Origin: Limnoperna fortunei
Lineage: Eukaryota; Mollusca; Bivalvia; Mytilida; Modiolidae
Direction of reading: 5' to 3'
Assembly (NCBI GenBank): GCA_944474755.1
Contig: OX104114.1
Coordinates: 24,761,220-24,825,219 of the forward strand
Length of the DNA stretch: 64,000 bases
The position numbers and the translations under genes were made by a program. This document shows, piece after piece, positions 25,901 to 52,900 of the stretch. The notes beneath the pieces are model-generated. The model worked only from the letters and a program-made list of their open reading frames with translations. It was not told the origin of the DNA and made no database searches. Within the stretch, counting starts at the first letter, position 1. Every line of letters begins with the position of its first letter.

Positions 25901-28900
25901 TTCCGTTTTTGTCCTGTAACTTTAAAACTATAACAGCTAGAGTAAAACTGTAAATAGCAAAAATGATCAACAATACAAGCCCTACAATTCACTGTAGTAG
26001 TCTGAAATTGTCAGATGACTCCTTATAGGAGTTATTGCCCTTAAATGGCAATTTTTTATGAAATTTTCCGTTTTTGTCCTGTAACTTGAAAACTATAGCA
26101 GCTAGATTGAAACTGTAAATTGCACAAATGATCAGCAATAAAGACCCTACAATTCACTTGATTGGTCTGAAATTGTCAGATGACTCCTTATAGGAGTTAT
26201 TGCCCTTAAATTGCAATTTTTTATGAAATTTTCCGTTTTTGTCCTGTAACTTAAAAACCATAGCAGCTAGAGTGAAATAATAAATTGCAAAAATGATCAG
26301 CAAAAAAGCCCTACAATTCATTTAATTGGTCTGAAATTGTCAGATGACTCCTTATAGGGGTTATTGCCCTTAAATGACAATTTTGTTAAGAAATTTTCCA
26401 TTTTTGTCCTGTAACTTGAAAACTATAGTAGCTAGATTAAAACTGTAAATTGCACAAATGATCAGCAATAGAAGCCCTACAAATGATTGCTTAGTCCAAA
26501 AATTGCAAGATGACTCTTTATAGGAGTTATTGCCCTTTCATTATGAATTTGGACATATGAACAGTTTTTTAATTATAAATTAGTCTATAACACACCTATT
26601 AGTAGAGTAAAACTGTAAATTTCTAAAGTACCCTAAAGGACAATGCCTAAAAACCATTTAATTTTCAGAAATTGTGGATGGCACCTTATAGGAGTTATTG
26701 TATTTAACAAATTTTTTGAAGAAATGTTTAGTTTTTGCACAGTAACTTAAAAGCTATAAAAACTAGACTGAAACTGTTAATTTCAAAAATTTTAATATAG
26801 TTTAAGTCATTTGGATTCCAGGTGAGCGATTACAGGCTCCTGGGAGCCTCTAGTTTCATATAGAATTGAGACCAGTTATTATTGCAAGTTTTACACTTGG
26901 GGTAAAATCATAAAAAATAAAGGAAAGGTCTCCTTTTTTAAANNNNNNNNNNNNNNNNNNNNNNNNNNNNNNNNNNNNNNNNNNNNNNNNNNNNNNNNNN
27001 NNNNNNNNNNNNNNNNNNNNNNNNNNNNNNNNNNNNNNNNNNNNNNNNNNNNNNNNNNNNNNNNNNNNNNNNNNNNNNNNNNNNNNNNNNNNNNNNNNNN
27101 NNNNNNNNNNNNNNNNNNNNNNNNNNNNNNNNNNNNNNNNNNTGGATTATCCATAGTAAAAAAAATTGCACTGTTGTTTTATTCGTGAGCAATCCATTCT
27201 TTTTAATATCCTGAACCCATATAAAATGACAATAACAGACCACATGTTTTGTAGCTTGGTACAAATGATGTACATGTAGGTGGAGTCCACTATTGAGCAA
27301 CCCTTATTTCCGATTAGCTGAAATATAAATGACTTCTCTTATAAACTAATTCATTGTGACTGCCAGTTTCCGGTGTAATATTTCTTTTAAAGTTATTGTT
27401 AGTGCTTATGAAACTTTAAACAAGCTTGATTCCTTCATGATGTATTCTTGTTTTTTATTGTTAAACAGTTTAAAATTTGCTTCCACTGAAACTAAAGAGC
27501 TAAGTGGAGAGAAACATTAAAAGTTGCAGTAGGTCGTTTAGGAATTATCAAAATCTAGCTATTTTTGGTTTCACACCTTCAATGTAAAAACTAGATTAAA
27601 GGTTTGGAATAAATGTAGGGAATGCTGTGTTCAATATTAAATTTTATATGATTATCATTTATAGATGTATGAACACATCCTTGAAAAAGTCAGATCAGTT
27701 GTGTGGATATATGGTAATGTTACATGTGCTGGTTATCCTCTGAAATACATTGACACCATCTCAGAAACAGGGGAGATAAACAAAGATTCTGTGCTGAGTT
27801 TAGTTGTTTATGGGGTATGTATAACATAACAAAAATTTCAGTACACTGGATCAAAGGTAATCTATTCAGTATAAATTAAGTCAAAAAAAGGACTTGGAGT
27901 ATTTTACAATTAAGCAGTGTTCTAAGAATACAATATTTTTATTTTCATGTAAAACAATTCTTCAAATAGGGCCCCTATTAGATTGCCTTTCACAAATAAG
28001 CAGAAACTTTTTGGAAACAAATCTGATTCTTACAGTCAAGTATATACAAGGCTGTGAGTCAATTTGCAGATAATCATGAATTACAAAAAATATCAAAACA
28101 AATGAGGGTGAGGGGGAATATTGAGTTTTCTTTCTAAGTTTTCAAAGGTTTTTGTTCTATATTTATTTGCAGGAAGGAGAAAGTCATTTGAGTATGATGG
28201 ATGGACTTGTTGTGAATTTATTAAAAGAGAAGTGGGTAACCTTCGCTAGATTTAGGTATGTTTTGGAAAAAAATCATTATATTTGGTAACAAAAAAAATT
28301 GCCGAGCAGCAGATTCTGCAGTATAATCTTCCCAAGGACATTAATAATTCATGGGGCTTCAATGGCCGTATTTTTTTAGGTATTTAGTCATCTTCTATTC
28401 ATTTACCAGTATATCAGGTTGCCAGTTGCAGTCTGACTGCAGACAGTGTAGGCTCATCAATCCAAAAAGTACCTGACAAAAACATTTACCTTCATCAGAA
28501 AAACTATTACTATTTGTTCATGTGCATAGCATAGTTCCTTAACAATGAGTGTTCAATTTTCATTTCAGATTTTACAGGCGATTTTTTGCCTTTATGCTGT
28601 ATTATGTCATTTTTTTGGTGGCGTTTGCTCTGCGTCCAGGTGAAGACAGGTGTCCTGGAACTATAACAGTCTTCAACTTGTCTGGAAATGGATTGAACAA
28701 TACAACCAGTGCTGCAGATGATCCATGCTTCCTGTTGAAATTCTGTGATAGTGAAGACATAGTAATAAATCAATAATATTATATTGTAATAAGCTTTAAC
28801 TGCATAAGGCATAATTTCTCCTAGTACAGAGTTACTTTGGACCATGTGTTAAGTCTGTATTCTTCATACAAAACTGCATACAAAAAACTGTTATAAGGTG

Positions 28901-31900
28901 CCTTCTAAGAGTAAGGATGCCTTATTTGTTTAATGTATACATTGAGATATTTTTTGGAATATTCCAGTTAGGTTATATGAAAAATAATAATTAAGAAAGA
29001 TTATTTCAAAACAAATAATTTATAACATTTTCTATTTTTAAAAAATGGTAAGGAGTATATAAACATAAGCCCAGATTTATTTTTAAAAGGAATTCTTTAG
29101 CTTTTGCATTGATATTTTCACTTACTGGTAAGTTTAAGTTTCTGATGAAAAGATTCTGCCTGACTATGGATTGGAGAACTCCCAATATTTTTTAAAATTT
29201 TACAGAAGAAATTTACAGAAAACATAAAAAAATATCTCAAAGTCATATAACATTATTTTGTATTTCAGGTCCGATGGGTAATGGAAATCATTGTACTGAT
29301 AGTTTCAATAATTTATCTATTTCTGGCCATGAAAGAGATTTACCATCAAGGATTCAACATATTTTTCACAACGCTGGTATGTTTTTAGATATAATAATTT
29401 CAAATAAATTGGCAATCATTTAAAAAGTCAAAACATTTTCTTGTTTGCACATGATTACAATATGAGGCTCATAAATGCAAACATTTTTATGCCCCCGCGA
29501 CGACATGTCGGGGGGCATTAAGTTTTACTCATGTCCGTCCGTCCGTACGTACATACGTAGGTCCGAACAAATTTCCGTCGAGCTTTTCTCAGAAACCGTA
29601 CATGAGAACAATTTTAAATTTGACAGAGTGGTTCAGTATCACAAGTTGTACGTCCTAAGCGAATTTCAGACCTGTCGGTCAACTACTTCCTGTTTGGGAC
29701 TTCATTTGTACGTAAATATGTCTGTCTGTATGTACAAATTTCCGTCAAGCTTTTCTCAGAAACCGTACATTAGAACAATTTGAAATTTGGCAGTGTGGTT
29801 CAGTATCACAAGTTGTACGTCCTAAGCGACTTTCAGACCTGTGGGACAACTACTTCCTGTTTGTGACTGGGCCAATATGAAAATGTGTTAACATGAGTAT
29901 GAAAATTTCCATCAAGCTTTTCTCAGAAACCGTACATCAGAACAATTTGAAATTTGGCAGGGTGGTTCAGTATCACAAGTTGTACGTCCTAAGCGACTTT
30001 CAGACCTGTCGGACATCTACTTCCTGTTTGTGACTGGGCCGATATGAAAATGTGTTAACATGAGTATGAAAATTTCCGTCAAGCTTTTCTCAGAAACCGT
30101 ACATCAGCACAATTTGAAATTTGGCAGGGTGGTTCGGTATCACAAGTTGTACGTCCTAAGCGACTTTCAGACCTGTCAGACAACTACTTCCTGTTTGCGA
30201 CTGGGCCGATATGAAAATGTGTTAACATGAGTATGAAAATTTCTGTCAAGCTTTTCTCAGAAACCGTACATCAGAACAATTTGAAATTTGGCAGGGTGGT
30301 TCAGTATCACAAGTTGTACGTCCTAAGCGACTTTCAGACCTGTCGGACAACTACTTCCTGTTTGCGACTGGGCCGATATAAAAATGTGTTAACATGAGTA
30401 TGAAAATTTCCGTCAAGCTTTTCTCAGAAACCGTACATCAGAACAATTTGAAATTTGGCAGGGTGGTTCAGTATCACAAGTTGTACGTCCTAAGCGACTT
30501 TCAGACCTGTCGGACAACTACTTCCTGTTTGGGACTTCATTTAGCGGAGGCATCCATGTCCCATGGACACACTCTTCAATTTTTTTAAGTTTGAAATGTT
30601 TATTTTAGCTATTTCAGTATGAGGAATGCAATGCAAGCAATTAAAAATTTAACATGAACTGTTGTTGAAATACATGAACAATTTGCTATGATGTCACAAA
30701 TGAAATTTGTTGATTGATAATGACATTGGTAGTGAGTTGCTCATTAATAAGTATTTTTTATGCCCCCGCGACGACATGTCGGGGGGCATTAAGTTTTACT
30801 CATGTCCATCCGAACAAATTTCCGTCAAGCTTTTCTCAGAAACCATACATGAGAACAATTTTAAATTTGGCAGAGTGGTTCAGTATCACAAGTTGTACGT
30901 CCTAAGCGAATTTCAGACCTGTCGGACAACTACTTCCTGTTTGGGACTTCCATTTGTACGTAAATACGTCCGTCTGTATGTACAAATTTCCATCAAGCTT
31001 TTCTCAGAAACCGTACATTAGAACAATTTGAAATTTGGCAGTGTGGTTCAGTATCACAAGTTGTACGTCCTAAGCGACTTTCAGATCTGTCGGACAACTA
31101 CTTCCTGTTTGCGACTGGGCCGATATGAAAATGTGTTAACATGAGTATGAAAATTTCCGTCAAGCTTTTCTCAGAAACCGTACATCAGAACAATTTGAAA
31201 TTTGGCAGGGTGGTTCAGTATCACAAGTTGTACGTCCTAAGCGACTTTCAGACCTGTCACACAACTACTTCCTGTTTGCGACTGGGCCGATATGAAAATG
31301 TGTTAACATGAGTATGAAAATTTCCGTCAAGCTTTTCTCAGAAACCGTACATCAGAACAATTTGAAATTTGGCAGGGTGGTTCAGTATCACAAGTTGTAC
31401 GTCTTAAGCGACTTTCAGACCTGTCGGACAACTACTTCCTATTTGCGACTGGGCCAATATGAAAATGTGTTAACATGAGTATGAAAATTTCCGTCAAGCT
31501 TTTCTCAGAAACCGTACATCAGCACAATTTGAAATTTGGCAGGGTGGTTCAGTATCACAAGTTGTACGTCCTAAGAGACTTTCAGACCTGTCGGACAACT
31601 ACTTCCTGTTCGGGACTTCATTTAGCGGGGGCATCCGTGTCCCATGGACACACTCTTCAATTTTTTACCATGGTTGTGGTCAGTTTAAGCACATTATATT
31701 AGAACCTTTTTCTCTAATGATCTAATGCAACACCAAGTGCATTCTGGGGGAAAATTTCATCAAGTTGTGGTTTATCACATTAGTCTGAACCAGTTTTAAT
31801 AGTACATACATAACTGACAACATTAATTTTTTTGTCCCCCCCAACTAACAGTTGAGGAGGCATATTGTTTTTCCTCAGTCCATTTGTCACTCCATCCATC

Positions 31901-34900
31901 CTTGACCATCTGTCTGTAATTCTGTCTGTCCCTCTATCAGTCCATCAGGACTTTTTTGTAAACTTGCAGATATTTAGCTGATTGTTGGTATGTGAGTCTA
32001 CAGTGACAAGTTGCTGATCAAGTTTACGTTTCATTTCACTTTGCAGATTTGTACTGAAATTATGTCTCTTGGACATTGGAAATTTCATCTTCTTTATTCT
32101 AAATACTTGTAGATATTTAGCAGATTTTTGGTATGTTAATCTAAAGTGATGAGTTACAGATCGTTTACATTTTATTTGTATACAAAAATTACAGGCCTTG
32201 GACTTCAATATAATACTTATATTTGTACATTAATGTTTTGTTTTTGTTTGATGCTGTTTAATGCCACTTTCAGCAATTTTTCAGCTATATCATAGCGTCC
32301 AGTTTTTATGGGGGGGAAAGCCGGAGTACCCTGAGAAAACCCCCCATCCTGCAGTAGGAAAACTAGCAATCCTTGTCAATTAAAATTGGAGTCAAGTATA
32401 TCGTGACTGCAGTGAGAATTGAACCCACAATATCAGTGTTGACAGGCCATGTGGTCAATAGTAGATGAACAACCTTAACAATTGTGCCACTGAGTCCCCT
32501 AATTGTACATTAAGGCAACCACTTTATACTGCCATTAATTAAGAGACATTTGTTTCTTGCACACACATTTATAGTCTACCATTTGATACTACTCCAAACA
32601 CATTCAGGGGCATCATATGTGTCTCTTAGTCAAAATATCTTTTCCAAGGTTGTGCTATTTACACCCCCTGCAAACTTGTTTGGGGAGGGGGGTATATAGG
32701 AATCACCCTGTCTGTCTGTCCGTCTGTCTCTCTGTCCAACTGTCCACATCCCTTGTAAGCGCAACTCCTCCTAAACCGCTTAATGAAATTTAATGAATCT
32801 TAGCATAAAGGAAGTATATTATATGTGCATAAAGAATTTTTATTGACAAGGATTATCATTAAGGGGAGATAATTGGACTTGAAAGTGAAACAAGGGGTAT
32901 CGCTTTGTGAGCGTGCTCACAGTCCACATTTGTTTAATCATTTATAATACAGCTGTGTCAAATTAGTGAGGAGGCATTACTTTCTGTTTTTTTGTATATG
33001 AATGTATGTATAATATTGCTTTATGTTTTGTTTACTCCACAGGGGGGGGGGGGGGCCACCATCTAAAGCTCTCTTCCTTGTAACCTGTGTGTTTGTATGA
33101 TGTTTTAATTACTCCACAGGGGGGGGAGCCAAAGCTCTTGTCTTTTAGCCTGTGTGTTTGTATTATGTTGTATTTACTCTATGTTTGGGGGGGAGGGGGG
33201 AGCACCAGCCAAAGCTTTGTTCCTTTTAACCTGTGTGTTTTTGTATCATGTTTTATTTACTCCTCATGGAGGAGCACTAGCCAAAGCTCTGTTTGTGTGC
33301 TTGTAACATGTTTTATTTGCTGCTCAGTAGGCAGCACCAGCCAAAGTTCTGTTTGATTTAGCCTGTGTGTTTGTATCATGTTTTATTTACTCCTTAGGGG
33401 GCAGCACAATTCAAAGCTCTTCTTTAGCCTGTGTGTTTGTCATGTTTTTTTAATTACTCCACAGGGGGTGCACTAGCCATAGCTCTGTTTCTTTAGCCAT
33501 TATGTTTTATATCATGTTTTATTTACTCCAAAGAGAGGAGCACCAGCCAAAGCTCTGTTCCTTTTAGCCTGTGTGTTTGTAGTGCTGATGCTGCCAGGGA
33601 GAGCAACAAGGATTATCATTAAGGGGAGATAATTGGACTTGAAAGTGAAACAAGGGGGTATCGCTTTGTGAGCGTGCTCACAGTCCACATTTGTTTAATC
33701 ATTTATAATACAGCTGTGTCAAATTAGTGAGGAGGCATTACTTTCTGTTTTTTGTATATGAATGTATGTATAATATTGCTTTATGTTTTGTTTACTCCAC
33801 AGGGGTGGGGGGGGGGCACCATCTAAAGCTCTCTTCCTTGTAGCCTGTGTGTTTGTATGATGTTTTAATTACTCCACAGGGGGGGGGGGAGCCAAAGCTC
33901 TTGTCTTTTAGCCTGTGTGTTTGTATTATGTTGTATTTACTCTACGTTTGGGGGGGGAGGGGGGAGCACCAGCCAAAGCTTTGTTCCTTTTAACCTGTGT
34001 GTTTTTGTATCATGTTTTATTTACTCCTCATGGAGGAGCACTAGCCAAAGCTCTGTTTGTGTGCTTGTAACATGTTTTATTTGCTGCTCAGTAGGCAGCA
34101 CCAGCCAAAGTTCTGTTTGATTTAGCCTGTGTGTTTGTATCATGTTTTATTTACTCCTTAGGGGGGAGCACAATTCAAAGCTCTTCTTTAGCCTGTGTGT
34201 TTGTCATGTTTTTTTAATTACTCCACAGGGGGTGCACTAGCCATAGCTCTGTTTCTTTAGCCATTATGTTTTATATCATGTTTTATTTACTCCAAAGGGA
34301 GGAGCACCAGCCAAAGCTCTGTTCCTTTTAGCCTGTGTGTTTGTAGTGCTGATGCTGCCAGGGAGAGCAACAAGGATTATCATTAAGGGGAGATAATTGG
34401 ACTTGAAAGTGAAACAAGGGGGTATCGCTTTGTGAGCGTGCTCACAGTCCACATTTTGTTTAATCATTTATAATACAGCTGTGTCAAATTAGTGAGGAGG
34501 CATTACTTTCTGTTTTTTTTGTATATGAATGTATGTATAATATTGCTTTATGTTTTGTTTACTCCACAGGGGTGGGGGGGCACCATCTAAAGCTCTCTTC
34601 CTTGTAGCCTGTGTGTTTGTATGATGTTTTAATTACTCCACAGGGGGGGGGGGGAGCCAAAGCTCTTGTCTTTTAGCCTGTGTGTTTGTATTATGTTGTA
34701 TTTACTCTACGTTTTGGGGGGAGGGGGAGCACCAGCCAAAGCTTTGTTCCTTTTAACATGTGTGTTTTTGTATCATGTTTTATTTACTCCTCATGGAGGA
34801 GCACTAGCCAAAGCTCTGTTTGTGTGCTTGTAACATGTTTTATTTGCTGCTCAGTAGGCAGCACCAGCCAAAGTTCTGTTTGATTTAGCCTGTGTGTTTG

Positions 34901-37900
34901 TATCATGTTTTATTTACTCCTTAGGGGGGAGCACAATTCAAAGCTCTTCTTTAGCCTGTGTGTTTGTCATGTTTTTTTAATTACTCCACAGGGGGTGCAC
35001 TAGCCATAGCTCTGTTTCTTTAGCCATTATGTTTTATATCATGTTTTATTTACTCCAAAGGGAGGAGCACCAGCCAAAGCTCTGTTCCTTTTAGCCTGTG
35101 TGTTTGTAGTCCTGATGCTGCCAGGGAGAGCAACATGTTCCAACACATATGAAGATGTAATGGCTGTCTTTGCCATTTTGGGTACAGCTCCATACTTTCT
35201 GTTCTTCTGCAGGTATATATTCAGAATCAGAAATTGCTCTGCTGTCAAGGCGGAGATGGCCTCAGTAAGATTGGCATAACATTTTAAAAAATAGTGCAAT
35301 ACAGTAAGAAATTTCTATTATAATTATGCTTTTAACTGCTGTTTTTTTGTGCACATTTAAAGTTGTGGGGTTTTTTTGTAAAAGTAAAATTACATTCAAA
35401 TAATTGCATTTTGAAGGCCATTGCCTCTGGAGTTATTCAACATACATGTTAGCTAGCACTATTCTGTAATATTGCAGAGGTTTTAAAATCTTGGGGCCCT
35501 TCGTTGTGATGATCTATAAGATGATAAAAGGAGATCTTTTACGATTCGTCATTATATATGTTGTGTTCATCGTTGGATTCTCTCAGTGTAAGTATTAGTA
35601 ATTAGACAGATCGTACTTATCAGAATACTAATATTTGTTACAGAACAATGATTTAAATTTGGAGGTGTTTAAGGATTGTGTGTGCATGCGGCATTTGAAA
35701 CTAGAAAATTCTACAACTATGAATGCAGTCGTTACAACTATAATTTAACTTAACTTTAAAAGTTTACAGGTCTTGATGATGAATAAAGGCATACATGAGC
35801 AACATATATGTTAAAATAATAATTGCCCTTTATGGTTCCTCTCCCTTAAATCTACTGGTAAAATTATTACAAATAAAGAAAAATAGGGAAAGATACATAT
35901 TTATCCTTCAAAGATGCCTTGATATAAATTTTTTTTCTTGAACATCAGTATAATAAAAAAGTTAGGAATATGTACTGCAAATAACACAAAAAATATTAAT
36001 ATATATATCATAGAAATTATTAAAATAAAATTCCTGCAATGTTTAAGTAGTAAAAGGAGTCAGTTCACACAGGACTATTTATGGCATGAAAATTCCAAGA
36101 AAAATACATTTTGTAATCATAACAGTATAAACTCTCCAAACTTGATAGAAATTTTGAATTTGGATAAAGAAAAAAAAGATTTTTTTGCCATTTTTGCTGG
36201 TAATTTTAAACAATTTTGCTACAGGAATTATTGGACACCTGCAAGGATCTTTCATTTGGTTTTAATTATTTCCGGTCTCTTTAAAGTGCAAAATTGTTTT
36301 CCTAAATTAACAAACATTGTATTAGTAAAGTAGGGGCCATTTGGAATCAGTAAAAGAATTGTGTTGAAAAGACAAAGTGTATTATTAAATTTTGAACTTA
36401 GCTTCCCTTCCATCAAATAAGAATATATTTGGTCCTGATTGTGTATATATGGAAAACTCTTGGAGGATTTTTTGATGTGATAAAACATCCTGGAATTTTT
36501 AGAGCCATAATATATACCTCATGGACATACTCCTTTATTTGGTCAGATTTGGAATATCAGCGAAATGAGAAATGTAGTCTTATTAATAAGAAGCTTTATT
36601 TACAGCGATGTACATTGTTTTTCTGAATTCTTCTGACAATCCCTTTGTGAACGCTGCCGAAGCTATAATGGGAATGTTTATGATGTCCTTGGGTGAATTC
36701 AGTGATTATGTCGATAGCTTTGAGCAGACCGATCATCCGATTTTAAGCAAAGTAAATTTTGATATCTATATGTTTTTTTAGCTATAGATTTCTACTTTAA
36801 ATGTCACAGCAGAGAAGGTGTTGTCAAGTCTAGCATGATTTGTGCTTCCCCTCTCCATTCACAGGGTTCTCAAAATATGAGAAAACACAGTGATTGGCAA
36901 TTTCATCTTTCTTTTGACAACATTGTAAAAAATAGGACAAGTGTTCAGTAAAATTACATCTGAAAACTGTCATCTGCTGTTGAGTTTGTGCTTAAATCTT
37001 TTTGAGAACCCTGATTTAATTGTTTTCTTCGTATGTAAATTTGAATCATAGTACTACAAAATAAGTTGATCAAAAGTGTGGTAAGTAATATGTTTTCTAT
37101 GTAACATTTGTTGTGTAAACAAGGATGTGTGGGATTTTTGACAGTTTAATTGCAGTTAGGTTCATGCATCTATTTTACAGCTATGTTCATCATTTTTCAA
37201 AAGATAACTGACAGCCCTTTTATACATCCTGCTGAAGCTGTTATGGGGATGTTCATGATGTCCCTTGGGGAATTTAGTGATTTTATTGAAAACTTTGAGG
37301 AGACTGATCATCCATATTTGAGCAAAGTAAATTTAGTATTGTAATTTTTTTTTATCTATTTTTGTTAGTAATTTTGGTGAGATTTTTAGAGATGAGTGCA
37401 CTTAGTTGAAGTTGCACCGGCATCAGTTGCAGATATGATGGTTGCAAAGATTTTACTGGTAACGAACCTGTGCCACAAAGTGGATATTTGTGACCATCAA
37501 ATCCCAGTTGACGTCAGCCATTCTTAAAACACAGTAATGTTGTCATTATTCTAATGCAATACATGTAAAATGTTCAAAATGAACCCTTTGAAATAGTAGA
37601 AACATGTTGGCCATGATTAAGCAAGGTTGTCAATTACTCAGACCATCACCTGTGAAATTGACACAAGACATCATCTAATCTAAAGTGGTGTTATATATAA
37701 TTGCATTAGGATTGGACAGACATATGTCACATGACAAATTTTGTAATCAGTTTGTTACATGTAGATACTGTGTTGTATATTTTATTGTTGTAGTGTGTGT
37801 CTCATTATTTGTGTTGTTTTTGTGTATTTCTGCCTTAGTTTGATTTTGTTTTTAGACTTAAAGGTGTGTTAAGTTTTCTGTTTTAGAGGTTTTTAAATGA

Positions 37901-40900
37901 TTTCTTATCAAAGTTTATTGTCATCAAAACAATAACATTTACATTGTTGACACAACAAAAGTAAATGAAAATTTGATAGATTATGAAACTATTTGAAATA
38001 TAAATTAATGTCAACAAAATGCCCAAAATTGTATCTAAGTGAGTAATAATTGTAATAATATTATAGATTATAAATGTGTTGTTAACATGCATGTTTATCT
38101 TTTGTTGGTCTTAAATTAATGTCAGGAGATAGTTGTATGTGTATATTTTAGTTTAGCGTATGGGTCATACCAGTTACAGTGTATCAGAAAATACTGGATC
38201 ATACATCTTCAGTATTTCTGTAGAGGATTTGATTGAAAATGACGATTTCATGTGTTGATGCTAATTCATGTTTTCAGCGATGTACATCATTCACCTGAAC
38301 AATTCATGGAGTCCGTTCAGTGACCCAATGGAAGCAATTATGGCAATGTTTTTGATGTCACTGGGTGATTTTGGAGACTATTTTGCTCAGTTTAAATCAA
38401 CGGACCATCCTTATCTTTCTCAAGTATTTAGTTTACTATGGTTTTGTTCCTGCACCTTTAAACTTAATTCCTATTCTTTATATTTAATTACATTCATTAT
38501 TTATATGAAATCGATTATAAAAACAATTACACAAAAATCAGATTTAAGCATTATACTATACACTTTCTTTTCCATCTAATTGTTTAATTTATTTAGATTT
38601 TAAGATCACAGATATAGTTTTTCATATGTATATACATGTTCATATTTCATTGAAAATGTTTAAATTATAAAGACAAAGGAATTAAGTTATATAAAAAGAG
38701 TACTTGCAGAAATAAATTGTTAAGATATGTTAAAATTAAATTGGATTTTATTCAAACTGTTTCTGGAAATTGATATGTTTATTTATCATCAAATTGTGTA
38801 CACTTTTATTAAATTTTTTAAGAGGTATATAACATGAAAAAACAAATCACATGGAAATAGTTAGTCTACTTTCTCTAAGTTTTACATAATATTCAAACCA
38901 GTGTGAAAAATCTATTTCTGGTTACTAGTTGTAAATATGTGATTAACATTTGTTGATTGGTTTTAAATAATATTGTCATAAACAAAAATAATGATTTCAT
39001 AAACGAAACAACTTCCATTTATCAACCTTTTAAGTCGTGACACTAAAATTGGGGTTTAAATAATATGTATTCTTTTCCCAAATTTACAACTTTTTAAAAT
39101 TAGGGAAGCCAAGGCTTAGGCTTTAAAATTTCCATAATTTATCTATCTCGACTGGAGAAATCTGATAATCCACTCGTACCAGTGTACGATTTATAGGATA
39201 ATTAATTGGACCGAGTGAATATCCAAAATATGATCACGAGTGCCGCATAACGCATCTGATTTAACCAGTGCACGAGTTCAATCTGATGCTTTATGCGGCA
39301 CGAGTGATCATATTTTGGATATTCACGATGCCCAATGGATTATCCTATGTATTATATAGATCAAATTGTTTTCGTAAAATTTTAATGCTTTATCCTAAAT
39401 TTTATGAACGCCGGATGAATATCTATATAGTACAAAACCAACTGCAACTTTGGCGGGAAAAAACCCGATAAATGATAATTTTCACATGTGATTTCTATCA
39501 CTCGGAAAATTCAATATTTCATCTCTATCTATATAATAAATTAGATTTCAACATTCAATGTAACTGTATCAAAATGATAGTTGCTAATATAAATCACAGA
39601 GGAATTGGCAACAGGTACAGATATGCAAAAAATTTAGAAGTAAATAAAATAAAAATGGCTTTCAGTAAACATCTACCTATAAAAGAGTCCATTCATAGTA
39701 TTGATAGCTATTACTGTTAGCTTGAATTAGTTATAGAAGGGAATATAAGAATTTGTTTCTGCAAGAACTTGAGTATTTTCCTTTACTGAGTATTTTCCCC
39801 TTAATACTAGTTTTTGTACAGCTAATCATTCAGATGTTTGATATTTAACAGTTTTGTTGATGATTTTATGGATTTTAACAATTTGTTGATGCTATTTTGC
39901 CTTTTTTAGTGTGATTACAAATATTTTTGTTAAACAATGTGCAACTCGATTCATTAAGTGCAAAATTTGACACAATTTTTATTCATCAATTTTTTAAACT
40001 TCAATATTAATTTTTAGAAGATTTGCAGTGTTAAGAAAGATATATTTACATGCCAAGAAAATTGTTTGTATCTCATTGAAAATTATATATGTATATATAT
40101 TTATTATATTATCTATACAAGAACAATTGAACTAAAATCCAGATGATGTTTTCTGCTTTAATTTCACTAGAATTTAAAATATATCACAGTAGGATCCATC
40201 TTGACCTTTTTAGAAGTTTCGGTCCCTGTTCATATTTTGCACTGCATGAGTAGAGTACTTAATTAGAGACTATCATTTTGTGTGTATTTTAATTATGTTA
40301 ATGTTTTCAGCGATGTACATTATACATCTGAACACACTTTTGGATTCCTTCAGACACCCAGTAGAAGCGATTATGGGAATGTTTCTGATGTCATTAGGAC
40401 ATTTTGGAGATTACGTTGACGAATTTAGTTCAACGGACCACCCGATTCTTGCAAATGTAATATGCTTCTATTTCTGCACGTCAAATGTAAAATTCCTTTT
40501 TTTAAATTTTGGATTAACTGTAATTTACTAATCAATAGATTGTCTTGTCTTTATACATGTATGTGAAATTGTTGTCAATCCTAACACTGATACGGTACCC
40601 TTTTTATATGTTTTATTATGATGAGATCACATAATATATCAATTCGGTATTTTCTGGAATAAAAGTCACATCAAAGTATAAGTTGCAGGACATATTTGAA
40701 AATGTTTAAAGATTTATTTATATTCTAGTTATGCTAGCTTCAATAATGTAGCTATGGTTATGCCTGTGAATTTGTTGCTACAGAATTTACAATATGTTGT
40801 GTGAATGTCAAAACATACATTTTATTTTCAATGAAAATTTTAAAAGGTGATATAAATTTTAAGATGCCCTTACCAATTATTGGTTTAAAAGTGACATCTT

Positions 40901-43900
40901 TTTTCTATAAGTTTTTTGAACGTAGGTTAAATTGGAATTATCTTTATAGGCTTGTAATATAGGAAGTTCAATTTACAGTAGAAAAAGTTTTGATCTATAG
41001 TTTGAAATATAGTAAAATTATACTACCCATAAAATTTAAGTACACAAAATTAAATACAGAGACAAAAGTGTTCAACAACAATAGCTGTATTTCTTTGCCT
41101 CTTAGATTATTTTCACTTGTTAAGCTTAATTTAATAACAAATGAACTAATAAAAAAGAAAATTTATATTCATATTCCTTTAAAATAAAGTCAAGTAGCTT
41201 TTTTGAAGTGATTTATCGGGTATACAGGCTTTAAATGAAGAGTGGAGAAAAGTTTTTTCGTATACGAAAAATTTCGTCATAAAATTCATTGTTTAATTTC
41301 ATTGTTGAAGCGTGAGTTTGTAACTTTCGTTTGATAAATAACCAAACTTACTCTATGATATTAATGTCTGGTGACTGCTGGCCAACTCAATCTCAGTCAA
41401 AATATTTTGAGTAGTCCCAACCCTGTGTACCAGAGCAATAAGAAAATATCCATTCATTGAGAAGTGACAATAATAGGGCACAAATTATTGTCAAGAAAGT
41501 GATAACATTAGTTCTTTGTACCCACACTAAAGTACATCTGCAATCCTAAATTTGTTACTACAATTCTGGAATTCAATGTACTTTTTAAACCATTTCTTAA
41601 TTTATACACGTACACATTAAAGACCATTTTTTGTCTCGCCTGCTACGAAAGTCGCTGGAGGCGAGACATATGAATGGGAATTCCGGCGGCGGCGTAAACA
41701 CTTGACATCTTGCTTCATATCTTTGTAAGCCCAAGCCCTAGGTCCATCAAATTTGGTCCAGAGGTAGCTTATGATTAGTACTTGCCAGTCAGTCACCTGT
41801 CACCTGACCTTGACCTCAATTTCACGGTCCAGCGACTACGTTAAAGTTTTTGGGTTACGACAGTTCCTCTGTAACTACGCATGGTAGGATGACAATATTT
41901 GGTGTATAGGTTGCTGATGACTAGTACATGACTGTCTGGTAGGTGTCACCTTACCTTGACCTCAATTTCACGGTCCAGCGACTACGTTAAAGTTTTTGGG
42001 TTACGACAGTTCCTCTGTAACTACTCATGGTAGGATGACAATATTTGGTGTATAGGTTGCTGATGACTAGTACATGACTGTCTGGTAGGTGTCACCTGAC
42101 CTTGACCTCAATTTCAAGGTCCAGCGACTACGTTAAAGTTTTTGGGTTACGACAGTTCCTCTGTAACTACTCATGGTAGGATGACAATATTTTGTGTATA
42201 TGTTGCTGATGACTAGTACATGACTGTCTGGTAGGTGTCACCTGACCTTGACCTCAATTTCACGGTCCAGCGACTACGTTAAAGTTTTTGGGTTACCACA
42301 GTTCCTCTGTAACTACGCATGGTAGGATGACAATATTTGGTGTATAGGTTGCTGATGACTAGTACATGACTGTCTGGTAGGTGTCACCTTACCTTGACCT
42401 CAATTTCACGGTCCAGCGACTACGTTAAAGTTTTTGGGTTACGACAGTTCCTCTGTAACTACTCATGGTAGGATGACAATATTTGGTGTATAGGTTGCTG
42501 ATGACTAGTACATGACTGTCTGGTAGGTGTCACCTGACCTTGACCTCAATTTCACGGTCCAGCGACTACGTTAAAGTTTTTGGGTTACGACAGTTCCTCT
42601 GTAACTACTCATGGTAGGATGACAATATTTTGTGTATATGTTGCTGATGACTAGTACATGACTGTCTGGTAGGTGTCACCTGACCTTGACCTCAATTTCA
42701 CGGTCCAGCGACTACGTTAAAGTTTTTGGGTTACCACAGTTCCTCTGTAACTACGCATGGTAGGATGACAATATTTGGTGGATAGGTTGCTGATGACTAG
42801 AACATGACTGTCTGGTAGGTGTCTCCTGACCTTGACCTCAATTTCACGGTCCAGCGACTACATTAAAGTTTTAGGGTTATGACAGTTCCTCTGTAACTAC
42901 ACATGGTAGGATGACAATATTTGTTGTATAGGTTGCTGATGACTATTACATGACTGTCTGGAAGGTGTCACCTGACCTTGACCTCAATTTCACGGTTCAG
43001 CGACTACGTTAAAGTTTTTGGGTTACGACAGTTCCTCTGTAACTACACATGGTAGGAAGACAATATTTTGTGTATAGGTTGCTGATGACTAGTACATGAC
43101 TGTCTGGTAGGTGTCACCTGACCTTTACCTCAATTTCATGGTCCAGCGACTACGTTAAAGTTTTTGGGTTACGACAGTTCCTCTGTAACTACGCATGGTA
43201 GGATGACAATATTTGGTATATAGGTTGCTGATGAATAGTACATGACTGTCTGGTAGGTTCCACCTGACCTTGACCTCAATTTCACGGTCCAGCGACTACG
43301 TTAAAGTTTTTGGGTTACGGCTGTTCCCCTGTAACTATGCAGGGTATGGTGACAATATTTTGTATACAGGCCGCTGCTGATATTTAATGCTATTTATGTA
43401 ATGCTTATGACGAAATTTATTTTCGTTACTGATGCGGAATGCAGGCGAGACGTTTTTCTGTGTCCACACTTGTTTTAGTGTTGGCATAAGTTCTGATAGA
43501 ATCAGATATATTTGAATCAATTTAATCCTACAAGACCTCGATTTATTTTTCCATTGCTTTAATTCTAGATAATTTTTTTATATTACGATTTCTGTTAATA
43601 CTAAAGATGTTTGTTAACAGTTTTATAAATATTGTTCCTGATGTTAATAGTATTAGCATGTTTTGGTTTTGTTTAACATGTTTATATTGCTTTCTTCTTA
43701 AAGTGCAGAAGCTTTTTTTCCAATTTTTGGAATTATTTAAAAATATGTATTAATTAAAAACTTTCAATAGATAATACATGTATTGAGTGAAAGAAACAGT
43801 TTTTGCACTTTAAGCATATTGTTGATGTTATAAAATGTTGGTTTGGTACTTGTTAAAACCTTATAACAAAATTTTATTTTGGTCCTTTTAACTTATTTTT

Positions 43901-46900
43901 TATTCTCAAATATTTTTTGTTGTCTAAATATTGCAGAAAATTGCATTGGAAAATTACCCAGTTAAATATCTTGAATGAGCAGAATATTTTGAATAAAATT
44001 GAATATGTATGAATAAAGTACCATGCTTAGCTTTGTGTTTTAAACTGCATCATTAGCATAACTCTTAACATTTGAACATCAGCTGCAGTATAGGAAAAGT
44101 GGATGTGGCTCTTCCCACCTGTCTGAGATGTAAAGTAAATTATGACTTCATAATTTGATTATGAAACGTTTTATTTCACATTTACAATTTTAAGTTGCTA
44201 CATGTATATTTAACGATGGTTTAGTAATGTTTTATATTAGCTACTGGTGCAGTTATTTTGGTACCAGTAATACCTGATTTAAAAGATCACCCTTTATTGG
44301 AAAACCACTTACAAATGTCTTTGATCCATGCTATCTACTGAATTAAGATCTTAAAACACACCTGCATGACTACATTTTTGGTTGGTTCTTGATGCACAAT
44401 ATCATTCAATGATCCTTTATTTTACATTTTTGTTTTTGCACCTTCTTTTTTACATTGCTTACTGTGAACAAAAATGTAATCAATTTCATTTTAAATTTTG
44501 ATTTTTGCAATGATTTTTGGCCACTAAGTGCAAACCCTGGTTATAGTATGGTGAAGTCGGGCATACAGCTTTTCAAGAACATTTGCAGAAGATGGTACCT
44601 ATTTTGTATAATCAACTCCACCTACACTTTTCAACCCAGATCTCTTAAACTTCACAGAAAGATTGCACATGTATTGCTATTATGGAATTGTTCAAGGATT
44701 TTTATGCCCTGCGACGACATGTCGGAGGGCATTAAGTTTTACTCATATCCGTCTGTCCGTGACGTCTGTTCGTATGTCTGAACAAATTTCGGTCAAGCTT
44801 TTCTTAGAAACCATACATGAGAACAATTTGAAATTTTGCAGGGTGGTTCAGATTCACATGTTGTACATCTTAAGCAACTTTCAGACCTGTGGGACATCTA
44901 CTTTCTGTTTGGGACTTCATTTAGCGGGGGCATCTGTGTCCCATGGACACATTCTTCGATTTTTTTTTCCTAATTTTCCAGACCTTAGAACTTGGTCATT
45001 TTTCAGAACATTTGCCTATTTTTTTTAATCAACTCCACAAAATTTTTTACACAAACCCAAAACCTTCCAACAAATTGTAATCCATTTCCTATTTATTAAG
45101 ACACAAGCCAGCCATTTCAGACTTTTGCTATTTTTTAGTTAAAAGTTGACAGAATATTTTTCTAACTGGAAAATTCTAAATTGCTTGTGTTTACAGTGGT
45201 ATAAAATAATCTTATTGGTTTACAGTAAAGTTATTTTAATGTAAATCTTAGATTTATGATCACAATTTACATGTAAACATATGTTGTACTTCTTAGTAAA
45301 AATTGTCAAAAAGTTTAGTTACACTTTGGTGTTATTTTTTGTTCACAGTGTGCAGATGTTTACCTTTTTAATTATTTAACATTTAATGTTGTTCTTCAGT
45401 GTTATATTTTAACTCCATTTCAGCATTTTACATTGCATTTATTAACTCTTCCTGTGATCCCACAACAGACCCCTGTGCCTTAAAACACCCCATTGACTCA
45501 GCTGTTGGAGTGTTTGCGATGAGTGTTGGGGCTTTTGAGGATATTTTTGATACATTTAGTTCTACTTCTTATTCAGCATTGTGCCAGGTAAGATTAGGTC
45601 ACAGTAACCTAATTCAGGTTCCTTTGATTTGAAATCAGAATCTGAATTTATTTCATTAAGCTTGTGAATTTGACATAATCAAGAATTTCAGCCAAAAACA
45701 TATACAGTAACAGTAGAAATTTTGGCATTTCAGTAATTTTCACTTTTTTTGGATCAGTGTATATGCCATTAAATTACCTTCACTAAAACATTTTTAGATC
45801 AATAATGTAACCCAGATATGTGTCTATGTTGCAAATATGACCTACATGTGAACAATTTTACAAGCAAATCCAGAAAATAACTTAGTGATATTACCGGTAA
45901 CCATGTTTCTTGAATCTACAGTTTTTAAATTTTATAATTACATGTTAAAATATTATGTAGAAAAACTTTTTCATGAAAGGCTTATTTATCTGATTAATTT
46001 TTATACACATAGTGGCAGGGTATTATGTTATACCCTCCATGGGGATTTGGGTGTCCTTCTGTCTGTCAGTACCTCTGTTGTTTCCTGATGATAACTTGAA
46101 AAGGCGTCAACAGATTTTATTTAAACTTTGCGCAGCTATTTAATACTATAAATTGAAGATCAAGTTCAATTTTCAGAACAATCCAATTTGTAGTTTTTAA
46201 CTTGGGCCAATTCAAGGTTGTTTTTTATTTTTTTTTTGCTCAATAATTGGTGGTTTCCAGATGATAACTTGAAAACATGTCAACAGATTTTGTTTTAAAT
46301 TTGCACAGCTGTTAATTTATAAGTTCTTTTAAATTTAAGATCAGGTTGAATTTTCAGCACAATCCACATTTGTAGTTTTTGAGTTGTGCCAATTTGAAAT
46401 AATTTTTATAGGCCCAGGGTCAAGGTAAAAATTGTCTTTCGAGGTTGACTGTTGTTATACTCAGCTGTTCCTGTAGGCTGATTTGTAATTTAGTAAAATG
46501 TACATGTTCATGAATATTAAAATAAATCTAATTAAAATACAATCTTTCACTTTCTCCCCTCTTTTTGCTATACAACACAGCAACCATAGCAAAAAGGGGG
46601 AGCAAGTGAAAGATTTAATTAAATTAGATTGTATTAAAATTAATGCAATGTCCCATTAAATGCCTTTTTTTTTTCTTTTGAAAAAAAACTTGATAAATTT
46701 AAAACTACATTGTAAGCATGTTCATTTTCTATACTGTGAAAATACTTAAATTCTTGGTTATTAATTTTCGTGGTTTTGTGAAATTTTACATGTTCGTGGG
46801 TTCTTAAATTCGTGGACTGACGGTTTCCGAAAATGCAAAAAGTGAGGAAGCGATCAAAATAAATGATTACAGCAGATCATTTTCGCTGCTGATAATAAAC

Positions 46901-49900
46901 ATCAACATATAAAGAAGACAAAACAGTTTCATTACATGATGTTTACGCACGTGGTAACGAATGTAAAATTAACAACACGGAAATCAAAAGCTAATTATAA
47001 ACAAGGTAATGTATTAATTAATTTATTAATTGCAATAAAAAGTACTTTGACTCTATTTAATTCTCTAATTGTTATCTATAGAAGCATTCCTAGCTGAAGG
47101 GCATTTGTCACTTCATGTGTTGAGTAGCAGTAAATACAAAGGTGTAATTTAATGTCATTTGTGCCACAATCGGTATTATCACAACATCCATTTGATATAG
47201 AGTGTCATTGATATGCACTAATAAAGATAAAGTATAGCTTATCTTTTAAATATTTTATTTGTTATTTTAATTTATGTTCAAAGGAGCAACCAAACTCATA
47301 ATTCCGATAATAATTTGTTACTTTTTAACATCGAAAATGAACACCTCATATATCCCCACCTTGACCGGAAGTCGATGTTTCTTCGTACGCTTTACAATTA
47401 AATAATACCTACATTTAATAAAAACACAATTCGAACATGAAACCTGTAACATAATCATTAAGATGGATTTTGGGCAGAACATTAGTAATGGATCTAACCA
47501 CAAAATCATATATTACATTTACAAATAAATGTCTGATCTAGGACATTTTCAGATCGTTCTTCCCAAGTTCCCATCTATTAATGAAGTTTTATTCTTCGTT
47601 GGATTTTTAATTTCGTGGTCCAAGGCCTCCATGAAATCCACGAAAATTGATACCCCACGAATAAAAAGTATTTCACAGTATTTCAAAATAAAAAAAGGAA
47701 ACAGTACTTAGAGTGCAGAGTTGAACAAACTGAAAAAAGTAATAAAACTAAATATATATTGAACTGTGAACTAGAATCAGTTATTTGAGGGAAATATTTT
47801 CCTGTTGTCATAATGCAAATCCAAATAAGGGCTATTTCATTAAACAGTAGATAAGTAGGATGGACGTTCAAGAATAGACCCACAAACCAGTATATTTATT
47901 ACCGTATCAAATGGGGTTTTCCTTTCTAACTAACCACATACTTTGTAATGGAATAGCCCTAGATAGCCCTATTATAGATGGATACCAAGAAGAATTTAGG
48001 TTTTAGTTAAACTGTAGAAATTTAAATACTGTTGAAATGAAAGTAATTTATGTTTCTAATCAAGTATGCTATAACATTTAATCATTGCTTCACAAGTCAA
48101 TGGAAAACTAACTATTTAGCTAGATAAACTGTCAAGTTATGAAGTTTTTACACAAATGACTGGGATTTGAATAACATGTCTTTTGAGACCGTAAGATACC
48201 TACCCTCAAGGGAGGTAAGTCTTGCATTTAGAAAAGAATAACTCTTCCTTATGATAATAGGAAACTCATGATTTAATGTATAATTTATATTCTTGAGAAT
48301 TCTGAAATCCATAGAACCATTGTCTAGTGCACCATGTTGAAAATGACATAAATTGGAAAAGAGTATTTAAGAAGTAAGACCAGGTCTCTTTCTTTTTTTC
48401 TGTAGCACTTGCTTTAATTGTTGTTAAATTTAAATGTTGTTATGTCATGAAAAATAGTCTTGTTTATTGTTCTCAATCTTCAGTTTTAGATTCTTTTTTT
48501 AATTTATTTTTAATTTTATGCTTTACACATCTGCTATTTTTTATAATAATTATATTTCATTATTTTAGCTTCTGTTTTTAAATAACATATCTGTGCAATG
48601 TAGATGTGTTTTAATAGATTTTTTTGGTCATAAATGATAATTGTTTGTTTTTTGTTTGAAAAGTGTTTAATTCCACTTTCAGCAATTTTTCAGCTATATC
48701 ATGGTGTCCAGTTTTTATTGGAGGAAGAAGCTAACTGGCATTCCTGTCAATTAAGATTAGAGTCGAGTAAGCCCTGCCCACAATAGGAATCAAACTCCCA
48801 ACCTCAGTGTTGACAAGACCACATGATCAGTTGTGGATGACTACCTTAACAACTCAGCCACAAAGGCCCCATAAATGATAATTGTCTTTGAGACCTAAAA
48901 TTATGTTGATATCAAGAATAGTATTGTTTTAAGTGTACAATTTTGACATTATTTTAGTCTGTCTAATAAATCCACATGTATAAAAAACACAATACAAGAT
49001 AATTTAATTTCTTTTTTTTTCAAATAATTGAATTAAAGTTTCAAATAAAACATTGTTACATGATGTAAAAACAAGTTGGTCTTCATAATATAAGATCATT
49101 ATAATTTTTAGGAAATACCTTATAATTTCTTTTTTTCATGACTTAATGATGTGAAGAGTTTTAGATTAATAGTAGACATAATTTATTGTTGTTATTGCAT
49201 CATGCTGATATTTACGATTTCTGTGGAGCCAGTTTGTAAAATACATTTCTGTTTTTAGGTCATGTTTGCCATCTACATGATTCTGGTAACCTTACTTCTA
49301 GTCAATATGTTAATTGCTATGATGGGAAACACATACCAGCTGGTGAATGAAACACAGAAGGAATGGTTCAGACAGGTAAGGAGAATTTATCCCCCTTGAT
49401 CTAACAAACATTTGTACCAAGTCAACCAATTATTAAATAAACAATCAGTTGATGCCATAGTCAGACCATATCACCCTTTATTTAATAACCAGTCAATAAC
49501 CGTGCTGTAGTCAAAAATAGTGCTTTATAGAAAAAAAAGGAGTGCAGTTTGCATAAAATTTGTAAAACAGTTTAAAATTAGATTTATGTGATGTAAAGTG
49601 AATCCAAAATTATTGATTTCAAGTAATCTTTGTATCAAACTGCAGACTAGCAAAGCACTTGTTTATATTCATCTGACAACTAAAACTATCTTTATCTGTG
49701 ACTTCATTTTGTGAACTTATTATACCCCCCGCAAACTAGTTTTTTTTTTGTTTTTTTTTGGGGGGGGTATATAGGAATCGCCCTGTCTGTCTGTCTGTCC
49801 ACATCCTTTGTAAGCCCCTCTCTTCCTAAACCACTTGACAGATTTTGATGAAACTTTACATGAAGGAAGTACATCATATGTAGATGTGCATGAAGAATTT

Positions 49901-52900
49901 TCGTCGCTGTCTGATATTATTCAGGGGAGATAATTGGACTTGAAGCAAAGTGGGGGGTATCCCTTTGTGAGCTTGCTCACAGTCCACACTTGTTAGACTT
50001 TAAACTTGGTTTGCCATTCAAGTATTCTTGAGTGACGACATTTTGAGAAAACAATGTTGTTCCTAATTTTAAGTGAACTTGTGGTAAATTCAATATTCAA
50101 GAAAATTTTTATAATGGTAATCAAATGTAAATCATTTAGTGAGGGTTAACTATAAAGCACCAACCTACAGGATCAAGGCAAGTCGGGAATATTTAAATGT
50201 CAGAAAATCCAATTTTGAATGCTCAAATATTCTATCTTTATTGCCATATACTTGTAGATGTACCATATTTATAGCCCTGCTTTAAAGAACCCTTGTTGTA
50301 CCCTTGCCTGTCCGTCCACTAATTTGTTTGTCTGTTTGTTCGCTTGTTTGTCCATCCGTAACACTAATTTCTGTCACAGTTTTCTAAGAAATTATAGGAT
50401 GCAGTAGCCTGATATTTTGCATATTGCTTTATCCTATAGTACCATATGGTGTATAGCAATTTTATGCTTCTTGGTCTTCTACTTCCTGTGTACCAATGAC
50501 TTTTTATTAAAGACGGGAATCACTATTGAGCATTAGCTCACAGATTTACCTTGTTACAATTGTTTGGAAAAAACCGTGTTGACTACTAGATAAAGACAAT
50601 TCTCTTTCTGTACAAACTATCCAACCTCCACCCAGTTAAAAACAAAGGCAAGTATTTGTATGTAAATGAGTGGGAAGTAGATTCTGGAATTTGTCTTCTA
50701 TCTCAAAACAAAATAATTGCTACTTGCCACATTTCTGTATGTATATTAAGTCGAAAATGTTAGTCACACACAAACCTCAGAATTAAAATTAATAACTTGT
50801 AGACAGGACAACGAATCACAAAAATTCTCTAACAACAAATAACAGAAAACACACAAATAGGGGCCTAAACTACTGACTTGGCATAGTCATACACATTTTG
50901 TTTGGGACCTCGGTAGCTGAGTGGTTAAGGTAGTCTGTCTACTATTGATCACATGGTCTTTCAACGATGCGGTTGCAGGTTGAAGTCTCACTTCTGGCAG
51001 GTTGTACTGGACTCCAATCTTAATTGACAAGGGTTGCCTGCTTTCCAACTTAAGGTGGTGGGTTTCTTCAGGTACTCAGTGGCATTAAACAGATTTCAAA
51101 CAAACAAACAAAGCACATTTTAAGTCCCAACTTAAAAAATACATAAAAATAAAGATATGCAGAATTGTATTGAGCAAACACTGAAAATGCATCATATACA
51201 TGTATATGTTGCAGAAAAAAGAACAAACCTCTACTGTATGAACTCTCATTTTATTTGTTTGTTAACCTCTGGCGTCAATAAAATTAGTATGCATTAGTGG
51301 TCTATATTGTTAATTTTGTAGTGGGCCAACATCATCCTTGTTATAGAGCAGAGTGTCACTACAGAAGAAAGAAGACAGCAGAGGATAAAATACTCCCAGC
51401 CCCTCCCTGATGGTGACAGGGCCCTAGTCATACGATGGCACCAGTCTGTAAGTTATCTTCAAAGTATCCATAATAAATAGTCTCAATGGACCACCTGTAT
51501 AAAGCAACAAATGTCTATATGATAAGGCTTAAACCAGTCTGATAGTTATCCTCAAAGTAGCCGTAATAAATAGTCTCAAGGGACCACCTGTAGAAAGCAA
51601 CAAATGTCTATATTATAGGGCTTAAACCAGTCTGATAGTTATCCTCAAAGTAGCCATAATAAATAGTCTCCATGGACCACCTGTATAAAGCAACAAATGT
51701 CTATATGATAGGGCTTAAACAAGTCTGATAGTTATCCTCAAAGTAGCTATATAAATAATAAATAGTCTCAATGGACCACCTGTATAAAGCAACAAATGTC
51801 TATATGATAGGGCTTAAACCAGTCTGATAGTTATCCTCAAAGTAGCCATAATAAATAGTCTCAATGGACCACCTGTATAAAGCAACAAATGTCTATATGA
51901 TAGGGCTTAAACCAGTCTGATAGTTATCCTCGAAGTAGCCGTAATAAATAGTCTCAATGGACCACCTGTATAAAGCAACAAATGTCTATATGATAAGGCT
52001 TAAACCAGTCTGATAGTTATCCTCAAAGTAGCCATAATAAATAGTCTCAAGGGACCACCTGTATAAAGCAACAAATGTCTATATGCAGGGGTAGAAATAG
52101 GAAAAGTAACTATGGGAGTTCAAAGGACTCCCTAATAAACCAGTCAAGGAGTCCTTAAAAATTGCAGGGAGTCCCATTCAACTGGCATAGTGGTCCTTAC
52201 GGCCGGGGGTATGGGGGCCACTTAAGGCCCCTAGAAGCTCTGGGGGTTTTGGTGCAAAAATATGCATTCTGGCAGTATTCTGAGGATACATTTCTATTCT
52301 GAAAAAATACTATTTTTTTGTCTGAATTTTTTGCAGTTTTGGTCTCAAACTGATCATTCATGAAGTTCTTGCATACATCATTATATTCCTAACAGTTTGT
52401 TATGAACATGCCATGTTTATATGAGCAAAATTTCTAAAGAAGATAGATAAAATAACATTACATTAAACCCAGAAATAATTCTGTTCAGCACACGTCCACT
52501 TGGACAAAGTTGTGCTGATTTAAATTGCTTCATTGGACACCCATCTACAGTACAGAACTGATCATGATGTTAATAATTATCCTTTATCTTTTTTCTTTCA
52601 AGTGCAGCTCATATATTTATGAAAGAAAATTGTTAAAATACAATACACTTTGAAAGAACTGAAGTTTGAAACAAATTGAAAAAAAAACATCTGTCAATAT
52701 TTAAATACTCTTTAAACCATCATATTTTAGAACAGGTCGATGAAAATCCCTATCTAGGCGTAATAATTAATGTAAATCTCAAATGGAGCACACATACAGT
52801 ATATCCAAAATCTGTAATCGAGCAAATAGCATCCTAGGCTATATTGGTAGAAATCTTAAATACAGTAGTGTATCGTTTAAAGAAACAGCATATACGTCGT

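Follow-up and report, generated by a model that had tools for sequence, protein, structure and literature searches.

Five tandem and in all likelihood mutually exclusive pore exons in a predicted Nanchung-type TRPV gene of Limnoperna fortunei

The gene described here lies in a stretch of 64,000 nucleotides from the bivalve Limnoperna fortunei (assembly GCA_944474755.1, contig OX104114.1, positions 24,761,220 to 24,825,219 of the forward strand). This whole stretch is called the window, and all coordinates below are window positions. The window contains one nearly complete TRPV gene on the + strand, with its start codon at 1559 and its stop codon at 59697. From its sequence and from comparison with other molluscs, we regard it with high confidence as one Nanchung-type TRPV gene, in which a single pore exon appears to have been duplicated in tandem to five mutually exclusive copies. 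Mutually exclusive TRPV pore exons are very likely both real and old, the five copies of the window being a local expansion.

Five pore exons between two constant exons

The five pore exons, p1 to p5, sit between the donor of exon 10 (after 35587) and the acceptor of the exon encoding S6, exon 12 (before 49259). The cluster and its two constant neighbours are as follows, all on the + strand.

Exon 10, 35478-35587, +: encodes the S4-S5 linker and the greater part of S5; phase 1 at its exit; donor AGT/GTAAGT (splice sites, tblastn)
p1, 36606-36751, +: 146 nt, class A, filter SLGEFSD (splice sites; E 1.0e-17 to Mytilus edulis P0003)
p2, 37181-37326, +: 146 nt, class A, sister of p1, filter SLGEFSD (splice sites, tree, tblastn)
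p3, 38278-38423, +: 146 nt, second class A type together with M. edulis P0006, filter SLGDFGD (splice sites, tree, tblastn)
p4, 40311-40456, +: 146 nt, class A, sister of p3, filter SLGHFGD (splice sites, tree, tblastn)
p5, 45424-45587, +: 164 nt, class B, two turret cysteines, filter SVGAFED (splice sites, tree, tblastn)
Exon 12, 49259-49375, +: S6 and the following stretch; single copy; entered in phase 0 (splice sites, tblastn)

Every copy has an AG acceptor, a GT donor and an open frame with phase 1 at entry and phase 0 at exit, and the cluster as a whole consists of tandem homologous exons of equal phase flanked by constant exons. The positions, lengths (146 nt four times and 164 nt), borders and phases given in the initial annotation, including the phase 1 exit of exon 10 and the phase 0 entry of exon 12, were all confirmed. 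Searches by tblastn with M. edulis isoforms gave best E values of 1.0e-17, 4.6e-14, 1.5e-18, 3.5e-12 and 3.9e-17 for p1 to p5; since all five lie at 3.5e-12 or lower, these matches are not due to chance. No sixth pore copy was found when three M. edulis isoforms were searched against the window by tblastn with E up to 1, and the same search matched exon 10 once and the S6 exon once. Besides the pore exon, no exon has intact extra copies, and only fragments of the upstream exon e10a recur (tblastn). Sequence alignment to the solved Nanchung, TRPV1 and TRPV6 channels is in agreement with the content first proposed for each copy, namely the end of S5, the turret, the pore helix and the filter.

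To follow the reading frame, all 32 inclusion patterns of the five copies were built, and the messages were read through the end of the S6 exon. The five single inclusions were free of stop codons, and a stop was present in each of the other 27 patterns, bearing out the proposal that exactly one exon keeps the frame. Inclusion of four copies restores the frame arithmetically, yet a stop is met earlier. The shared length remainder (3n+2) is inherited through duplication and does not reflect five independent coincidences.

The pore and S6 region in its p1 version matched Nanchung best among PDB entries (E 9.8e-23; PDB 9nvn and relatives), followed by weaker matches to Inactive (9.9e-15), TRPC5 (4.5e-6) and TRPV3 (1.9e-5). 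Pfam analysis of the 647-residue p1 model gave Ank families followed by Ion_trans, that is, ankyrin repeats and a six-helix channel domain. By these matches, the locus is a predicted Nanchung-type TRPV channel gene, nearer to Nanchung than to Inactive or the vertebrate TRPV channels; the assignment uses the match ranks of pore plus S6 and protein names. The full-length matches listed are mostly named TRPV5-like or TRPV6-like, a few (P0092, P0106 and P0122) being named nanchung or Nan. Among the matches listed whose alignment spans the full query, identity to the model is 77 to 81% for Mytilus proteins and mostly 58 to 69% for those of other bivalves.

Cassette-swapping isoforms in other molluscs

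The initial annotation had proposed a search of other bivalve genomes for the same cassette. Protein searches recovered the cassette swap in isoforms of Mytilus species, Crassostrea virginica and Ostrea edulis, and also in Dreissena. Three protein searches (the best 120 of 926 matches, the best 120 of 271 and all 85 of 85) yielded 163 proteins; the matches are cluster representatives, and copy numbers in other species are hence lower bounds. Ten same-species protein pairs, picked from the search matches, were compared.

In five species, the isoforms of a pair differ solely within the cassette of 49-55 residues. The M. trossulus pair has 613 upstream and 134 downstream residues identical, with 18/52 identical in the cassette, and the corresponding values are 620, 134 and 18/52 for M. 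galloprovincialis, 598, 132 and 19/49 for C. virginica, and 598, 132 and 20/49 for O. edulis. The M. edulis pair P0003/P0006, which represents two class A types, has 611 and 134 identical flanking residues and 29/49 in the cassette. Three more pairs combine a swapped cassette with upstream differences: M. edulis P0003/P0009 (594/599 aligned upstream residues, from lengths of 611 and 599; cassette 18/52; downstream 134/134), Dreissena (588/588, from lengths of 588 and 599 with an 11-residue insertion; 15/45; 133/133) and Pomacea (504/512, from lengths of 597 and 512, an 85-residue difference; 18/48; 130/130). The isoforms of seven related species carry one cassette copy each.

Further isoforms show small differences near residues 120 and 300, outside the pore. 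Protein P0069 terminates just past exon 10, and in Tegillarca P0076 a class B cassette leads directly into the stretch after S6. The class B pore proteins P0035 (781 residues) and P0059 (772 residues) stem from contigs 2766 and 2978 bases long; because such contigs are too short for the introns of the gene, both look like spliced messages.

History of the copies and selection on them

A tree was built from 65 cassettes, namely the five of the window and 60 from 59 proteins (of 60 chosen among the 163); 53 alignment columns were kept, a number for which the tool warns of few columns, Tegillarca P0076 was dropped, and the root was not inferred. Class B separates from the remainder with support of 94/92, just below the starred level. 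The class B side holds 24 of the 65 rows, with 22 named molluscs (p5 row included), and falls into two starred groups, one of 13 bivalve rows with p5 among them and one of 11 gastropod rows. The other side has 41 rows, including all 12 non-molluscan Nanchung-type rows; its class A interior shows little resolution, and we give no meaning to the insects that stand beside p1 and p2. The Physella row is long. Within class A, M. edulis P0006 clusters with p3 and p4 (97/91, starred), and the supports for individual pairs are 92/80 for p3 and p4, 91/84 for p1 and p2, and 93/83 for p5 with the class B cassette of M. trossulus.

Classes A (p1-p4) and B (p5) are both found in bivalves and gastropods. 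From the tree, with its moderate support, the two classes most likely arose before the split of bivalves and gastropods, separate origins of class B in the two groups being a conceivable alternative. The simplest reading of the class A groups is that the second class A type would predate the split between the window's lineage and Mytilus, p3 and p4 having separated afterwards; p1 and p2 are perhaps also a later doubling. Among the cluster representatives listed, no pore swap was seen in non-molluscan Nanchung-type proteins.

The class A copies have diverged under constraint. In a Nei-Gojobori count, dS was 1.98 and dN 0.19 for p1 and p2 (dN/dS 0.10), and dS was 1.30 and dN 0.23 for p3 and p4 (dN/dS 0.17), which are values of constrained coding sequence. 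Synonymous sites are saturated in the remaining four pairs among p1-p4, where pN is 0.27 to 0.32. Across all six pairs, pN (0.17-0.32) is far under pS (0.62-0.98). Given these dN/dS values, the idea that unused class A copies are decaying was rejected. Owing to its different length, p5 stands outside this count, and its conservation is seen in its match to Mytilus class B. Three lines of evidence support the mutually exclusive logic originally proposed for the cluster: the asymmetric phase, the purifying selection acting on p1-p4, and the cassette-swapping isoforms of other molluscs.

Changes that the swap would make in the pore

In the alignment, the copies differ in the turret, the filter and the stretch after the filter, and p5 is six residues longer than p1-p4. 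Each of the 13 bivalve class B rows has at least two cysteines in its cassette. The residue that follows the glycine of the filter aligns with the Met of the TRPV1 motif GMGD and is E in p1 and p2, D in p3, H in p4 and A in p5. Of the 60 other tree rows, 27 carry E at this position, 14 D, 14 Q, 2 T, 2 N and 1 S. Among the 163 retrieved proteins, which include many insects and many near-identical isoforms, the position is readable in 156, with E in 51, N in 40, D in 23, S in 17, Q in 16 and T in 9, and neither H nor A was found in these 156. In the gapped alignment, it is ambiguous where the TRPV6 filter aspartate falls relative to the filter of the molluscs, and equivalence is not claimed.

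Because the changes lie in the pore, and in view of the known channel cases NALCN, Cav3 and TRPM3, altered permeation can be expected: one gene probably makes channels that pass ions differently, and the five products would most likely differ in permeation, block or gating. The different ion selectivity suggested in the initial annotation is a possible effect, and the filter residue does vary among the copies. It is also quite possible, at a little below even weight in our estimate, that the swap acts through the turret and outer pore mainly on gating or on the sensitivity to drugs or stimuli, with little change in selectivity. A good part of the variable positions falls in the turret or past the filter, and passages of a TRPM3 study (PMC7959729) describe a pore-loop splice change that alters steroid, heat and hypotonic responses besides selectivity. 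The residue after the conserved filter glycine, however, changes too, from E in two copies to D, H and A in the others, which speaks against this reading.

A bolder and more tentative idea, towards which we lean less than away, is that of an old mollusc Nanchung pore-switch, in use through splicing since before the split of bivalves and gastropods, that offers five pores here, H and A filters among them, and by which one sensory cell type could be tuned from calcium-favouring to non-selective or proton-sensitive currents with its stimulus sensor unchanged.

Possible mechanism of exclusion

Under the proposed scheme, a single ancestral pore exon would have been duplicated in tandem to give five copies, and splicing would link exon 10 to a single copy, and this copy in turn to the S6 exon. 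Skipping or multiple inclusion would, through the phase 1 entry and phase 0 exit, lead to the early stops found in the constructed patterns, and messages with such stops would presumably be lost to nonsense-mediated decay or yield no channel. The products would have the sensor, the part from S1 through most of S5, the gate of S6 and the tail in common, and would differ in the turret, pore helix, filter and outer mouth. The isoforms perhaps also enter mixed tetramers with Inactive-type subunits, a suggestion prompted by solved entries in which Nanchung and Inactive occur together as chains.

Every wrong pattern is already unproductive by its reading frame, and the most likely arrangement is a regulated choice of one exon together with removal of frame-shifted messages. 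Steric exclusion or a distant branch point is argued against by the introns between the pore copies, which are 429-4967 nt long, and by the AG-free stretches of 10-50 nt before the five acceptors. Another mechanism to be considered is docking/selector RNA pairing as in Dscam, where one intronic docking site pairs with an element at every copy. Motifs for Fox, MBNL, Nova, PTB, CELF and STAR, which we take to be the factors recognizing them, and U-runs were counted near the pore exons; TGCATG occurs 2 times in 3000 nt near the pore exons vs 1 time in 7200 nt near the constant exons, too few to weigh.

Weighing of the evidence

Several observations weigh against the reading of the five copies as mutually exclusive exons of one gene. 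The A and B proteins of Potamilus (P0020/P0024) differ throughout (upstream 528/590, cassette 19/49, downstream 117/133), as do those of Sinanodonta (P0019/P0125; 327/440, 23/49 and 116/133). The members of each of these pairs have adjacent locus numbers. In these unionids, the A/B swap may have been resolved into two nearby genes with one pore each. Biomphalaria P0065 joins parts of the A and B cassettes in frame in one protein, and is either a true exception or an artefact of gene prediction. In four bivalve isoforms, Mizuhopecten P0036, Magallana gigas P0056, C. virginica P0060 and Mya P0061, cassette A is followed by a short tail without S6; these may be subunits whose pore is incomplete, or may stem from premature polyadenylation, and the outcome is therefore not always a full channel. 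The isoforms of other species are mostly computed annotation, a kind that is usually based on RNA reads, and the evidence for L. fortunei itself consists of genomic sequence. Finally, no signal emerged from a scan for docking/selector pairing that covered four arrangements and 15 shuffles of each, at the low power of a scan without the introns of relatives: the weakest pairing was equalled or beaten in 13, 13, 2 and 10 of 15 shuffles, and the mean pairing in 5, 9, 3 and 5 of 15.

If only some copies were used, the others would be duplicates not yet lost and open by chance. We consider this unlikely, even though the donors of p3 and p4 are poor against the consensus by eye (CAA/GTATTT and AAT/GTAATA) and the filter residues of p4 and p5, H and A, are those unseen in the retrieved proteins. 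The high dS values, about 2.0 for p1 and p2 and 1.3 for p3 and p4, stand against dN of 0.19 and 0.23 (p5 not counted), and all five copies keep intact frames and AG/GT borders, which long neutrality would have broken. Far less probable still is an origin of the copies as remnants of a tandem TRPV gene duplication that lost its other exons. The separate, diverged A and B proteins of Potamilus and Sinanodonta are what such a history could leave, but the flanks of A/B (or two A) isoforms are exactly identical in five species, and tblastn found no second exon 10 or S6 exon within 35587-49259, on which ground this origin was rejected. Tandem duplication of one pore exon within one gene is the reading we retain.

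Constant exons and repeats of the window

The upstream exons e1 to e10a, which together encode the N-terminus, the ankyrin repeats and S1 to S4, were placed by splice sites and frame, by tblastn with M. edulis isoforms and by Pfam, and the two downstream exons by tblastn.

e1, 1559-1922, +: constant upstream exon
e2, 7431-7604, +: constant upstream exon
e3, 14050-14239, +: constant upstream exon
e4, 15104-15257, +: constant upstream exon
e6, 27665-27814, +: constant upstream exon
e7, 28173-28255, +: constant upstream exon
e8, 28569-28761, +: constant upstream exon
e9, 29269-29376, +: constant upstream exon
e10a, 35061-35212, +: last exon of the constant upstream group
Exon 13, 51322-51447, +: C-terminal region
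Exon 14, 59536-59697, +: C-terminus with the stop codon

One ankyrin exon (about residues 300-346 of M. edulis P0003), expected within 15257-27665, was absent from the tblastn matches. A run of 200 N, an assembly gap, lies inside this interval at 26943-27142, and the missing exon is perhaps hidden there.

Upstream of e10a, partial copies of its start, acceptor included, lie at 33535-33610 and 34299-34374, with a spacing of about 764 bases. The match is close over some 75 bases, beyond which the copies diverge; they are without the donor half and look like non-functional fragments or decoy acceptors; 70-base units of the e10a acceptor region recur around them. A 93-base minisatellite forms two arrays, at 51440-52085 (about 7 copies) and 53966-56911 (about 31 copies). 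The first array starts inside the terminal 8 bases of exon 13, whose border is also matched by a later unit with 91% identity over 81 bases, as if the array had grown out of the exon-intron border. A satellite with a 146-base unit forms five arrays in different introns (7902-8746, 9331-10319, 21317-22592, 23997-25117 and 41798-43360), one of which lies between p4 and p5. A link between this satellite and the pore exons of equal length was rejected, as the satellite unit had no blastn match to the five exons with E up to 1. In the intron after exon 13, a 197-codon open stretch (52771-53361) matches no Pfam family and reads like what we take to be the end of a non-LTR retrotransposon.

Significance and comparison with known systems

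Among the main sensors with which animals perceive heat, touch, sound and chemicals are the TRPV channels, whose pores are generally regarded as fixed for a given gene. A conserved splice switch that replaces the pore and keeps the sensor and gate would be a natural domain-swap experiment, allowing a direct test of what share of TRPV selectivity, heat response or mechanical response resides in the outer pore. Surveys of TRP channels that take one isoform per locus, as a passage of a recent cephalopod survey says of itself (PMC13402157), would miss such diversity.

According to the initial annotation, no TRPV gene had been described to swap its pore. Full-text literature searches, covering titles and abstract starts with subscription papers largely outside, found no description of TRPV pore-exon swapping and are consistent with this; the isoforms themselves are already present in public annotation, so that the phenomenon is on record though, as far as found, without a description. 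The terms 'splic' and 'mutually exclusive' were not found in passages of oyster, scallop and cephalopod TRP surveys (PMC8004665, PMC8539334, PMC13402157), and passages of a 2026 octopus paper mention TRP isoforms generally and contain no pore swap (PMC12919962). Swaps of tandem duplicated exons are enriched in human and fly ion channels, as stated in part of a study (PMC9741552) in which the term 'TRP' was not found.

The closest parallels lie in other channels. In NALCN of a snail and other invertebrates, the mutually exclusive tandem exons 15a/15b span the pore and filter and give EEEE or EKEE; exons 31a/31b exist as well, molluscs included, and isoform currents were indistinguishable from background (PMC3557258). 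As in the gene described here, tandem exclusive exons cover the re-entrant pore and filter in molluscs, and a key filter residue differs. NALCN, however, has four domains with two alternatives in one of them, whereas the TRPV gene encodes a subunit with five alternatives, and all copies of that subunit in a tetramer would be changed. In invertebrate Cav3 T-type channels, exons 12a/12b swap the S5-P turret and shift the balance of sodium vs calcium selectivity (PMC4436565). These alternatives differ in length and cysteines, much like the longer, cysteine-bearing turret of p5 and class B, but they concern the domain II turret of a voltage-gated channel, do not span the filter and number two. TRPM3 is likewise a TRP channel with a pore loop altered by splicing, which changes selectivity and stimulus responses (PMC7959729), although it alternates between a short and a long pore loop rather than between duplicated whole pore exons. 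Mutually exclusive pore exons are known in other channels and, as far as found, are new for TRPV and apparently old in molluscs.

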